Below are positions 30,466-35,558 of a stretch of 37,265 nt of DNA, in pieces (the first letter of the stretch is position 1; every line of letters starts with the position of its first letter). The DNA lies in assembly GCA_016868055.1 (NCBI GenBank), contig VGHX01000018.1:1-37265 (forward strand), written 5' to 3'. The stretch comes from Betaproteobacteria bacterium. Lineage in GTDB: Bacteria; Pseudomonadota; Gammaproteobacteria; Burkholderiales; Burkholderiaceae_D. Under the pieces are notes generated by a model. It searched no databases. It was not told where the DNA came from and was given only the letters and a program-made list of their open reading frames with translations. Position numbers and translations under genes: made by a program.

Positions 30466-31029
30466 TCACTGATTGAGAAAGTTCTTCAGCAGCGCGTGGC
30501 CATGCTCTGAGAGGATCGATTCCGGGTGAAATTGCACGCCCTCGATCGGGAACTGTGTGTGCCGCACACCCATGATCTCGCCGTCGTCGGTCCAGGCAGT
30601 GACCTCAAGACAATCCGGCAATGAATCGCGCTCGATTGCGAGCGAGTGGTAACGGATGATGGTGTACGGGCTGGGTAGATTCTTGAATACGCCCACCCCG
30701 GTATGCTTGATCGGGGATGTCTTACCGTGCATGACTTGCTGCGCGCGAATGACCTTGCCGCCAAACGCAGCGCCCATGCTCTGATGGCCGAGGCAAACGC
30801 CCAAGATAGGAAGCTTGCCGGCAAAGTGCTGGAGCACAGGTACCGAGATGCCAGCTTCATGCGGGGTGCAGGGCCCGGGTGAGATACAGATGCGCGAGGG
30901 ATTCAGCTGCTCGATTGCTTCGATCGTGATCTCATCATTGCGAAAGGTACGAACGTCTTCACCCAGCTCGCCGAAATACTGCACCAGGTTGTAGGTGAAG
31001 GAATCGTAGTTGTCGATCATCAGTAGCAT
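30466..31029 (-). CDS. trpG: anthranilate synthase component II, glutamine amidotransferase
   Basis: TrpG supplies ammonia to TrpE; in some bacteria the same protein also serves PabB. The 187 aa protein starts [20 protein letters not shown]. The triad is Cys79 ([12 protein letters not shown]) and His168/Glu170 (GVQFHPESI). Its ATG at 31027-31029 overlaps the TGA of a 49-codon frame ahead of it, which ends in a copy of the TrpE C-terminus. The junction therefore has the TGATG form of a direct trpE-trpG overlap, although trpE itself ends about 300 nt upstream. Confidence 0.95.
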
Positions 31030-31178
31030 CACAGTTCCCCGTCCAGTCCGTCTTGCACCTGCTCCGCCGCACGTAATACCGCGTAGAACTTATTTTGGTT
31101 CCGGCCGCTACGCTTAACCTGCACTTCTTGCAGGTTAGCCTCCACCGAAATAAAGCGCGCTGATTGGTGGGTAAACAT
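31029..31178 (-). CDS. 49-codon tandem small ORF B between trpE and trpG
   Basis: The frame is open from ATG 31178 to TGA 31029. Residues 7-26 read [20 protein letters not shown], followed by NQNK. Residues 31-49 read FY then [17 protein letters not shown], which is the TrpE C-terminus. From the AVLR codons to the stop the DNA differs from trpE at one base. It is joined by TGATG to ORF A upstream and to trpG downstream, and GGAG lies seven bases before the ATG. An in-frame ATG one codon earlier (31181) would avoid the overlap. No known family is recognised. Translation is plausible from the coupling but unproven. Confidence 0.65.
31089..31160. repeat. 72 bp imperfect palindromic repeat, copy B
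   Basis: It matches copy A at 71 of 72 bases. The core is a perfect 8 bp inverted repeat, AACCTGCA (31116-31123) and TGCAGGTT (31129-31136), around CTTCT. The outer ends (TTATTTTGGT and ACCGAAATAA) also pair, so the whole element can fold. It is read in frame by small ORF B. Confidence 0.85.
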
Positions 31179-31327
31179 CATCTTTCTCCATCGAGGCCAG
31201 CTGGTACTTGTCCGGCAGCTCGCAGCATTGCTGTTGCTTTATTTTGGTTCCGGCCGCTACGCTTAACCTGCACTTCTTGCAGGTTAGCCTCCACCGAAAT
31301 AAAGCGCGCTAATCGATGATTGAGCAT
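31178..31327 (-). CDS. 49-codon tandem small ORF A between trpE and trpG
   Basis: The start ATG overlaps the trpE stop as TGATG, and the frame stays open for 49 codons. Residues 7-30 are identical to those of ORF B, and 71 of the 72 bases are the same. Residues 31-49 resemble the TrpE tail (AMLRAAGQVPAGLDGER). Of the 13 residues identical to TrpE here, 11 use a different synonymous codon. The unit length from stop/start to stop/start is exactly 149 nt, as in ORF B. This pattern is hard to explain as random non-coding DNA, but no function can be read from it. Confidence 0.6.
   Translation of the reverse strand: MLNHRLARFISVEANLQEVQVKRSGRNQNKATAMLRAAGQVPAGLDGER
31238..31309. repeat. 72 bp imperfect palindromic repeat, copy A
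   Basis: This is the second copy, displaced by exactly 149 bp. The core hairpin is at 31265-31285. The outer arms CTTTATTTTGGT (31237-31248) and ACCGAAATAAAG (31293-31304) pair at 11 of 12 positions. The end AAATAAAGCGCGC (31297-31309) is a perfect inverted copy of GCGCGCTTTATTT (31381-31393) inside trpE. Confidence 0.85.
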
Positions 31328-32823
31328 CACAGTTCCCCATCCAGTCCGTCTTGCACCTGCTCCGCCGCACGTAATACCGCGCGCGCTTTATTTTCTGTCT
31401 CCAACCATTCCATTTCGGGGATGGAGTCGGCGACAATGCCGGCAGCGGCTTGTGCATACAGCATGCCGTCTTTAATCACGCCGGTCCGGATAGCAATGGC
31501 CAAATCCATCTCGCCACCGAATGACATATAGCCGCAGGCGCCGCCGTAGATGCCGCGTTTAACAGGCTCAAGCTCGTCGATCAATTCCATCGCACGCACT
31601 TTCGGTGCGCCGGATAAGGTGCCCGCAGGGAAGGTGGCGCGCAGCACATCAAGATTACTCATCCCCGCTTTGAGTGTTCCCTCGACATTCGACACGATAT
31701 GCTGCACGTGGGAATATTTTTCGATGACGAATTTATCAGTCACTTTCACACTACCGATCTCGGCAATACGACCGATGTCGTTGCGTGCGAGATCAATTAG
31801 CATCACGTGTTCCGCGATCTCTTTAGGGTCTGCCAATAATTCATCGGCAAGTTTGGCATCCAGCTCGGGTGTCGCGCCACGCGGGCGTGTACCTGCGAGT
31901 GGGCGAATGGTGACCTTACGCTGCCCGTCACGGTTGGTTTCATTGCGCACCAAAATTTCGGGTGAGCTACCAACGATCTGCATATCGCCGAAGTTGTAGA
32001 AGTAAAGGTAAGGCGAGGGATTCAGCGAGCGCAGCGCGCGATACAAAGACAATGGCGAATCTACATACGGCTTACGAATGCGTTGACCCACTTGTACCTG
32101 CATCAAATCACCGGCCATGATGTAGTCCTTGGCCTTCAGCACCGCCGTCAGAAAATCTTCTTTCTTGAAATCGCGAATCGCCTCGGTGCGAACGGAAGCC
32201 GACGTTACCGGCACATCCACCGGACGATGCAGCATGGCGCGCAGATCTTTCAAACGCTGTCGGGCACGGCTATAGGCTTCGGGTCGGGTGGGGTCAGCGT
32301 AGACGATCAAATACAGCTTGCCGGAGAGGTTATCGATGACGGCGAGTTCTTCGGTCAGCAGCAGTTGAATATCAGGCAGCTGCAGCGGGTCGGGTGGCGC
32401 GCTATTTTCGAGTTTGCGTTCGATCATGCGCACCGCGTCGTAGCCGAAGTAACCGGCTAATCCACCGCAGAAGCGCGGCATTCCGGGACTGAGTGCTACT
32501 TTGTAGCGCGCCTGAAATTCGGCAATAAAATCCAGCGGGTTTTGATCGGAGGTCTCGATCACTTCGCCGTTGCGAACAACTTCGGTGTGCTGGCCCGACG
32601 CGCGCAGCAAGGTGTTTGCCGGTAGGCCGATAAATGAGTAGCGACCAAACCGCTCGCCGCCTACGACAGATTCCAGCAAGAAGGTGTTTCGGCCCTGCTG
32701 CTGCGGTTGTGCAAGTTTGAGGTACAGCGTGAGCGGCGTCTCAAGGTCTGCGAATGCCTCGGCGATGAGGGGAATGCGGTTGTAGCCTTGCGCGGCCAAC
32801 GATTGAAATTCGAGTTCAGTCAT
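31327..32823 (-). CDS. trpE: anthranilate synthase component I
   Basis: TrpE converts chorismate and ammonia to anthranilate. The 498 aa protein carries the Trp feedback-site motif LLES at 49-52 ([19 protein letters not shown]) and the chorismate-binding C-terminal domain ([20 protein letters not shown], then [54 protein letters not shown]). ATG 32823 is preceded by GGAGAG. An in-frame upstream codon lies in the leader hairpin and is rejected. The C-terminal ~20 codons are duplicated downstream in two small frames. The gene itself is intact. Confidence 0.96.
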
Positions 32824-32834
32824 GTTTCTCTCCG

Positions 32835-32856
32835 GCTGCCACAACACGGCGGCAGC
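32835..32856 (-). promoter_or_regulatory. hairpin next to the trpE ribosome binding site
   Basis: GCTGCC and GGCAGC form a perfect 6 bp stem around a 10 nt loop, ending one base before the GGAGAG of trpE (32828-32833). It lacks the T run of an intrinsic terminator. A second hairpin, CCAGC/GCTGG, lies at 32876-32892. Together with the Trp-rich leader frame they could form attenuation structures; the mechanism is inferred. Confidence 0.4.
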
Positions 32857-34277: not shown

Positions 34278-35558
34278 ATGCGATCATCGCAGCGCGCCAC
34301 CAGCTTGCCTCTGCTTTGGCTAGTGCTCAGCTTGGTCGCTGGCTGTGCGACCAAGCCGGCGCGGCAGCCGGCTCAGACGCAGACCGTGCCGGCGACGGTC
34401 GTGTCTTCTGGGGCGCCTGTCGCGCCATCCTCTTCATTGCCAACCCCTCCAGCACCGCCCTCATCCGCACCGCCCTCATCCGCAGATTCAACGCGCCCGG
34501 CCGACTTCCTGCAGCGAGCCAATTTTAATGACCTACCTGGTTGGGCGGATGATGACCAGCGCGAGGCGTGGGCGCCCATGCTGGCATCGTGCCGCGCCTT
34601 GGCGGCCAAGCCGGAATGGAAGGCGGTGTGCGCAGCGGCAGGCTTGGTCGACGGCGCTGATGCTGTGGCGGTACGTAAGTTTTTTGAACAGTATTTCGTC
34701 CCGCATCAATTGCGCAACCCGGACGGGAGCACTCAAGGGCTGGTGACCGGGTACTACGAGCCGCTGCTACGTGGATCAAGAAAACGCGGAGGCGTTTTCC
34801 AGACGGCATTACACAAGCCGCCGGCTGATTTGCTGACGATTGAATTGGCCGGGCTTTACCCGGAGCTGAGAAACTTTCGTTTGCGTGGCCGTGTGGTGGG
34901 CAATAAGGTGGTGCCTTACTTCGCTCGTTCGGAACTAGAACAGCAAAGCGCACTTGCTGACACCGCTTTGCTGTGGGTGGATAGTCCGATTGAGGCGTTT
35001 TTTCTGCAGGTGCAGGGGTCGGGTCGTGTGTTTCTTGCTGATACCAATGAGACCGTTCGACTTGCCTATGCCGACCAGAATGGACACCCTTACCGGTCAA
35101 TTGGCCGCTACCTTGTCGACCGCGGCGAGCTCACGCTGGAGCAAGCCTCGATGCAGGGCATACAGGCCTGGGCTGCGAGTAACCCGAGACGTCTGAAAGA
35201 GCTGCTGGATGCGAACCCGAGCTATGTTTTTTTCAAAGAAGAGGCGATCAGTGATCCCAGCGTCGGACCAAAGGGTGCGCTCGGGGTGCCGCTAACGGCG
35301 CAGCGTTCTATTGCGATTGATCCGCAGTTCACCCCGCTTGGAGCGCCGGTGTTCTTGTCTACTACGCGCCCTAATAGCAGCTCGCCGTTGCGGCGTTTGA
35401 TGCTGGCGCAGGATACCGGAGGTGCGATTCGCAACCCGATACGCGCCGATTTTTTTTGGGGCTTTGGCAAAGACTCGGGCGAGCTAGCCGGCAAGATGAA
35501 GCAACCCGCACAGATGTGGGTGTTGCTCCCAGCAGCGCTTGCCGTCAGTGCGCGATGA
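34278..35558 (+). CDS. mltA: membrane-bound lytic murein transglycosylase A, lipoprotein
   Basis: MltA cleaves peptidoglycan glycan strands to 1,6-anhydromuropeptides at the outer membrane. From ATG 34278 the protein is 426 aa with a lipoprotein signal LLWLVLSLVAGCATK (lipidated Cys23). A Pro/Ser-rich linker follows (about 30-75), then the MltA barrel (TGYYEPLLRGSRKRGGVFQT) and a C-terminal 3D domain with the catalytic Asp in LAQDTGGAIRNPIRADFFWG. Its last 14 nt overlap the convergent hemerythrin-like gene. Confidence 0.94.
   Translation: MRSSQRATSLPLLWLVLSLVAGCATKPARQPAQTQTVPATVVSSGAPVAPSSSLPTPPAPPSSAPPSSADSTRPADFLQRANFNDLPGWADDDQREAWAPMLASCRALAAKPEWKAVCAAAGLVDGADAVAVRKFFEQYFVPHQLRNPDGSTQGLVTGYYEPLLRGSRKRGGVFQTALHKPPADLLTIELAGLYPELRNFRLRGRVVGNKVVPYFARSELEQQSALADTALLWVDSPIEAFFLQVQGSGRVFLADTNETVRLAYADQNGHPYRSIGRYLVDRGELTLEQASMQGIQAWAASNPRRLKELLDANPSYVFFKEEAISDPSVGPKGALGVPLTAQRSIAIDPQFTPLGAPVFLSTTRPNSSSPLRRLMLAQDTGGAIRNPIRADFFWGFGKDSGELAGKMKQPAQMWVLLPAALAVSAR

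Follow-up and report, generated by a model that had tools for sequence, protein, structure and literature searches.

The window analysed here is a 37,265-nt stretch of betaproteobacterial DNA (contig VGHX01000018.1, assembly GCA_016868055.1), on the minus strand of which trpE and trpG are separated by two short open reading frames, ORF A and ORF B, each of 49 codons plus a stop and with 24 residues identical between them. The ATGs of ORF A, ORF B and trpG are found at 31327, 31178 and 31029, respectively, a spacing of exactly 149 nt, and a TGATG stop/start overlap occurs at every step from trpE through ORF A and ORF B to trpG, so that the layout described in the first-pass annotation is confirmed from the sequence. 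Both units lie within one tandem array of period 149, spanning 31025-31394, and comprise the following features:

31327..32847, minus strand: trpE (Pfam Chorismate_bind and Anth_synt_I_N), the 3' end of which is the native copy X1
31391..31395, minus strand: GAAAA target motif in trpE, directly ahead of X1 (read from the sequence)
31327..31390, minus strand: X1, the native trpE 3' end including the stop, with an SD-like GGGGA ahead of the next start
31300..31309, minus strand: arm of unit A, GCGCGCTTTA, a perfect reverse complement of the 10 nt at the start of X1 following AAAA (read from the sequence)
31242..31299, minus strand: structured core of unit A (TTTC...CCAAAA)
31178..31241, minus strand: X2, a diverged trpE-tail copy in unit A
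31178..31327, minus strand: ORF A, 49 codons, with TGATG overlaps with the trpE stop and the ORF B start
31151..31160, minus strand: arm of unit B, GCGCGCTTTA (read from the sequence)
31093..31150, minus strand: structured core of unit B, identical to that of unit A
31029..31092, minus strand: X3, the trpE-tail copy adjoining trpG, approximately the same as X1 save near its start
31029..31178, minus strand: ORF B, 49 codons, with a TGATG overlap with trpG
30466..31029, minus strand: trpG (GATase class I; Pfam)

The C-terminal part of ORF B has residues identical to those of the trpE tail, and that of ORF A is a diverged version of it (ATAMLRAAGQVPAGLDGER); a Pfam search of the two ORFs returned no family at E<=0.001. 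Elsewhere in the window, at 34452-34484, there is a perfect 15-nt tandem repeat of 2.2 copies (GCACCGCCCTCATCC).

The trpE-trpG junction within the genus

Twenty-one genomes of the same genus were compared, 19 of which gave a TrpG hit; among these 19 the junction is empty in seven, filled in ten and occupied by a relic in one, and in one further genome, G001 (L135), the TrpG homologue does not adjoin trpE. In the seven empty genomes a single base separates the trpE stop from the trpG ATG, which means that the units are an insertion, as had been proposed, and their presence in ten of the 19 genomes makes an assembly artefact unlikely. The filled junctions hold one to three units each, 15 in total, with three in G015 and G005 and two in the genome of the window.

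All 15 of these units are open, 14 of them over 49 codons and one over 42 codons following a loss of 21 nt, and the same insert with broken frames was found in none of the same-genus genomes with units. The start of each unit overlaps the preceding stop, as TGATG, ATGA or TAATG, and the last unit is joined to trpG by the ancestral one-base gap in eight of the ten filled genomes and by TGATG in the other two (G000 and G006). The claim that coupling to trpG has been preserved despite the insertion is therefore backed by comparison. The two deletions found, of 21 nt in G005 and of 90 nt in G008, are multiples of three and leave the chain intact; the second concerns the relic, a 19-codon ORF which retains its overlaps and the arm, consistent with a 90-nt loss that would have removed the core and left the arm in place. 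Under a simple model in which substitutions are treated as independent, the probability of no break is 1e-3 with the 102 distinct substitutions observed and 4e-4 with the 87 located outside the core. The off-frames of the units are mostly closed (open in 2/14 and 0/14), and GGAG or GGGG precedes 26 of the 26 starts counted, a count that has no control set.

A dispersed structured repeat

Searching the genome of the window with the 73 nt shared by the units returned the trp copies and short exact matches on the ends of two contigs, C52 and C85, which were identified through Pfam as the ftsW-murG junction. A covariance model of the repeat (R1) gave ten matches in this genome at five places: two at trp, five on the ftsW-murG contig ends, and others at cysH-cysD, downstream of gap and before an Alpha-E-domain gene. 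As C52 and C85 both end inside the ftsW-murG array (L012:1-411 and L013:19-305), the five matches there may belong to a single array, which has a period of 131 nt and consists of 44-codon ORFs, each of which has an FtsW-tail copy at its end and overlaps the next by ATGA. The cysH-cysD copy lies between two PAPS_reduct genes (Pfam), the names being taken from gene order. The presence of the core at these other loci indicates that the shared 24 residues are the translation of a repeat: the segment noticed in the first-pass annotation is thus real, and its being part of a dispersed repeat had gone unnoticed there.

In a collection of species genomes (84,980 species) the exact pattern GGTGNAGGCTAACN{12,42}GGCCGGANCCAAAA matched 67 stretches, the titles of all 67 being betaproteobacterial or, left unresolved, only Proteobacteria; the matching contigs at trpE-trpG apparently belong to the assemblies compared above within the genus, which come from several different sampling projects. 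The same pattern gave 0 matches in viral contigs, and plasmid and phage collections queried with 251 nt around the trp units gave no match. With the covariance model, matches at E<=0.01 were obtained in 22 of 56 relatives, the copy-richest being G050 with 47 matches, and 5 of 299 genomes drawn from the phylum (that of the window included) match at E<=1e-6, one of which (G247) belongs to another order of the class. A literature search by topic and by motif letters, with most subscription literature outside its coverage, found no description of the element; seven papers contain at least one of six motif words, and none of these concerns such an element to judge by its title. ORF A and ORF B appear to be a tandem pair of copies of a small, mainly betaproteobacterial mobile repeat, which arrives with a duplicate of the adjacent gene end and apparently thereby keeps trpE and trpG translationally linked. 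An assembly error, or a simple local tandem duplication of trpE in which no mobile element took part, would be compatible with the array structure taken alone, and is extremely improbable given that the core is found at many unrelated loci in many genera and that ten same-genus genomes have units; local slippage or assembly error was ruled out on the grounds of this dispersal and of the units in other genomes.

The repeat that encodes the 24 residues is structured, with the form GGTGnAGGCTAAC-hairpin-GTTAAG-hairpin-GGCCGGARCC, and its 68 distinct cores measure 54-69 nt. For an alignment of 61 cores, a fold was drawn by hand as a three-way junction with two hairpins and an outer stem containing a 3x3 internal loop. 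In this fold 92.4% of cells are paired and covariation reaches 0.228, compared with 0.073 in shuffles and <=0.044 with slid partners, although two of the five fold measures, pairs changed on both sides (76/500) and further pair types (109/500), do not rise above the shuffles. In the consensus computed by RNAalifold, the outer stem has other pairs and only one hairpin is present. Since this stem is almost invariant, covariation is hardly informative for it; the two predicted hairpins are well supported, the modelled three-way junction less so. The imperfect outer stem, TTTCGGT/ACCAAAA, with 97% of cells paired, amounts to terminal inverted repeats to which target-derived arms are added, and its TTT/AAA is itself partly target-derived. 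Integron attC core sites have the form RYYYAAC...GTTRRRY, and the GGCTAAC...GTTAAGC of the alignment is near this consensus, but its second base is G.

Such a core might be a structured RNA with a regulatory job of its own, e.g., an attenuator, an RNase site or a terminator-like switch, the ORFs being incidental. The conservation of the core, its covarying hairpins and the long same-direction ORFs found on both sides at 43 of the 67 loci favour this explanation, which we nevertheless consider improbable: Rfam gave no family at threshold for the repeat (tRNAs were the only threshold matches, and the two sub-threshold ones had E-values of 0.83 and 1.2), a regulatory RNA would not need open frames, and the unrelated targets, presence and absence within the genus, tandem arrays and tRNA targets (see below) fit a selfish repeat better.

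Insertion sites and candidate machinery

Usable flanks were available at 61 of the 67 loci, and at 40 of these the sequence just after the core (X2) is a direct duplicate of upstream sequence (X1), a duplicate being called at a score >=32 with its start within 12 nt; the other 21 show no clear duplication. At most protein-coding loci with a duplicate, X1 is the end of the upstream gene. Duplicate length is variable, from 20 to 147 nt, with no fixed-length target-site duplication. When the 40 loci are grouped into 28 distinct targets, AAAA stands exactly before X1 in 21 (background 0.003), including one, L121, where it belongs to the neighbouring core, and within 3 nt of slack in 27 (background 0.017). 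The arm, i.e., the ten bases to the left of TTTC, is complementary to the start of X1 at 5.89 of 10 positions over the 28 targets, against a null of 2.67±0.30 with a maximum of 3.86 in 5000 permutations, and its complementarity to X2 is nearly equal (5.61/10, with one locus per target). Scrambling of the initial ten bases of X2, with the bases beyond them conserved, is seen at 8 of the 40 loci.

Some insertions occupy the (G/C)AAAA in the anticodon loop of a tRNA (tRNAs called by ARAGORN, placement by eye), namely of tRNA-Leu(CAA) and tRNA-Phe(GAA) in G050, of tRNA-Leu(CAA) in L086 and of tRNA-Ser(TGA) in L120; duplication affects the 5' half of the tRNA in the two cases from G050 and in L120, and the 3' part in L086. 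In G050 (L183:3130-3531 and L184), tandem cores were observed in the anticodon loop of partial tRNA-Leu(CAA) and tRNA-Phe(GAA) copies, with the intact tRNA directly downstream. In the unit at gap, the core has the ends TTGC...CCACAA and the target is GACAA, the ends having changed together with the target. The first ~10 nt of X2 in this unit are scrambled identically in two species, that of the window (C5, L188 ~1430-1500) and G008 (L194), and the rest of X2 follows each species' own gap sequence, a case of concerted evolution. At the Alpha-E-domain loci of the same two genomes (C10, L189; and L193) a truncated copy of the START of the gene precedes the core and the intact gene lies downstream, the duplication being on the 5' side and not on the 3' side.

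In G273, which served as a test set at a later stage, the 16 stretches retrieved contain 17 matches to the model; the stricter pattern matched 14 times (one match looks spurious), leaving four stretches without a match, and a clear duplicate was present at only 4 of the 14 pattern matches. Several of the G273 copies without a clear duplicate sit inside another dispersed repeat, as is also seen in G050. Dispersed repeats holding one or two cores were observed at L172-L181 and L185-L187 in G050 and at L209, L210, L212 and L213 in G273; many of those in G050 have inverted ends (GGAAACGCTGAA...TTCAGCGTTTCC), and between copies that have the first core and those that lack it the difference is a clean insert. 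A duplicate farther upstream, which would be a sign of longer elements, was sought at loci without a near one, and nothing convincing was found.

The combination of a variable, AAAA-anchored duplication and a target-complementary arm looks, as far as sequence can tell, like priming or guiding at the target. Retrotransposition, with AAAA priming, variable duplication and a snap-back arm, was set aside because RVT_1, matched in 3 of the 22 carriers, is missing in G050 and in the genome of the window. A model resembling IS200/IS605 is attractive because the arm resembles a guide at the foot of a hairpin; it was set aside because Y1_Tnp, which at E<=0.001 has matches in 13 of the 22 carriers, including one in the genome of the window, is missing in G050 with its 47 copies. 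A helper, whether a transposase or a reverse transcriptase, may have acted and then been lost. The puzzle posed by this element is which activity could place a ~58-nt core at AAAA, duplicate as much as 147 nt of a gene end and leave a target-complementary arm.

Proposed translation through the units, tail copies and known systems

Where long co-directional ORFs flank the core on both sides (43 of 67 loci), an unbroken chain, defined by every start lying -4 to +2 nt from the preceding stop, is found in 17 cases, seven of them trpE-trpG and ten elsewhere. The latter are ftsW-murG in four lineages (L064, L082, L101 and L114, by Pfam, and L090), an RNase H gene followed by an exonuclease gene (L079, Pfam), a gene pair ahead of the Wadjet gene jetD (L080 and L103, Pfam, which in L080 covered the downstream gene), ccmE-ccmF (L092) and a pair of branched-chain permease genes (L110), both by Pfam. 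The chains in L080 and L103, which use non-ATG starts, and in L079, where the first ORF has 13 codons, are weak, and the absence of a chain from the other 26 of the 43 loci means that coupling does not characterise the element as a whole. In L080 and L103 the unit is directly before the defence gene, with a TTG- or GTG-started mini-ORF overlapping jetD by ATGA; at ftsW-murG in L064 and L082, a second mini-ORF made of different repeat DNA lies between the core unit and murG and keeps the ATGA overlaps.

We consider it likely that a MIRU-like mobile repeat inserted at the end of trpE has given rise to a chain of mini-ORFs which passes ribosomes from trpE to trpG, the peptides being by-products. 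Each unit consists of a short target-complementary arm, the structured core of ~58 nt and a duplicate of the terminal ~64 nt of trpE. Present in this trpE tail are an SD-like purine run, the stop and its overlap with the following start, so that its copying would recreate the restart junction after every core. Ribosomes finishing trpE would then restart on ORF A, on ORF B and finally on trpG through termination and re-initiation. We infer past mobility of the unit, translation of its frames and coupling, the frame and the chain probably being maintained by selection for this coupling, with the mini-peptides as probable by-products. Because the restart junction is copied along with it, a dispersed repeat could in this way sit in tightly overlapping operons such as trpE-trpG, ftsW-murG and ccmE-ccmF and leave them unbroken. 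The trpE-trpG junction, which within one genus is empty, holds one, two or three units or retains a relic, constitutes a natural experiment on translational coupling, and the repeat explains small ORFs that would otherwise be annotated as unknown genes.

The first-pass annotation had also suggested that the peptides act on the anthranilate synthase complex; as mimics of the TrpE tail they might, for example, bind or tune it. Across the units, the counts of substitutions at codon positions 1/2/3 are 13/8/11 for the arm, 6/5/4 for the core and 10/13/32 for the tail copy, so that from codon positions the arm and core peptide looks unconstrained and the tail copy does not. The changes of the tail copies, mostly at third positions, count against by-product peptides and, together with the open state of all units, in favour of functional ones. 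We nevertheless regard peptide function as very improbable, and action on anthranilate synthase is unsupported, since the core is also found at ftsW-murG, cysH-cysD, gap and tRNAs, the same synonymous pattern is seen at unrelated loci, several of them without an ORF chain, arm and core have no third-position bias, the number of units varies from zero to three between species and G008 retains only its 19-codon, arm-containing relic with overlaps.

The divergence between tail copies is itself a puzzle. Comparing X1 with the later copies within each genome beyond the first 15 nt (14 comparisons in nine genomes, not independent of each other), 85, 16 and 8 differences were found at codon positions 3, 1 and 2, respectively, with 73 synonymous codons and 17 others; at other loci X1 and X2 differ by 53 synonymous codons and 16 others, seven of the 16 coming from L111 alone, whose reading frame may be wrong. 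Such strongly synonymous differences are unexpected for a pure by-product copy without recombination or selection, and three readings fit them: selection on the tail copies, refreshing by recombination with the intact genes of relatives, or the bringing in of a foreign gene end.

According to the last of these readings, the element would be a cassette whose imported X1 became the new end of the gene, the native end being displaced behind the core. The sister genomes G015 and G020 differ by 0.047 in upstream trpE and by 0.133 in X1, and the first arm of G015 (L084) has the same C variant as its X1, which suggests that a foreign X1 arrived along with its arm. The arms also fit X1 a little more closely than X2 (6.4 vs 5.8 of 10), the copy adjoining trpG keeps the empty-site junction in eight of the ten filled genomes (not in G000 and G006), and by eye the X1 of L122 resembles that of L117 more than its own X2. 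Per target, however, the two arm values are about equal (5.89 and 5.61), homologous recombination with empty-site relatives would also yield synonymous differences, X1 and X2 evolve together at gap in G000 and G008, third-position GC over 16 loci (mean distance 0.22 vs 0.19) did not tell a foreign copy apart, and 45-60 nt are too short for a firm tree. A foreign gene end is somewhat doubtful. Tentatively, and as a rather unlikely proposal, the repeat may represent an undescribed class of mobile element, in which an arm of ~10 nt complementary to GAAAA and the following bases helps to choose the site, and a "gene-end cassette" brings a replacement 3' end, stacks in tandem and keeps translation of tight operons going by re-creating the restart junction.

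Several known systems share individual features with the reading preferred here, that of a mobile repeat whose mini-ORFs pass ribosomes on to trpG. REP elements, which are associated with REP-associated tyrosine transposases, are small intergenic hairpins with a short sequence at the hairpin foot, and the present repeat is likewise a small hairpin element between genes with a short sequence at its foot, but it has long duplications and no Y1_Tnp match in the 47-copy genome. In Rickettsia palindromic elements a hairpin repeat is also read in frame as a peptide; these are inserted inside genes, whereas the present mini-ORFs are located between genes that are themselves intact. Some integrative elements restore the 3' end of the gene they enter and so keep the target intact by means of a gene-end copy, as here, though the trp unit is only ~150 nt long, has no integrase gene and forms tandem arrays. 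With MITEs the repeat shares terminal inverted repeats, in the shape of its imperfect outer stem, but not a fixed-length target-site duplication, its own measuring 20-147 nt. MIRU insertion makes a very short duplication, DTGA, and differs in this respect from the AAAA-anchored duplications found here.

For MIRU (mycobacterial interspersed repetitive units; Supply et al. 1997, as described in PMC12548453), a small ORF overlapping the stop and start of neighbouring genes in operons and insertion at start codons are given. The trp unit works alike, with stop/start overlaps at trp and at the 17 chained co-directional loci, but its insertion signature, an AAAA-anchored duplication of 20-147 nt, is not that of MIRU; MIRU is a mycobacterial family, while the present one is mainly betaproteobacterial, has a structured core and target-complementary arms and bears no known sequence relation to it. 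The nearest insertion signature found in the literature searched is that of YPAL/RU-2 of Yersinia, with a length of ~168 bp and variable duplications of 3-26 bp near dyad symmetry (PMC2229807); the repeat described here differs in its cores of 54-69 nt and in its longer duplications, which rebuild a gene end.
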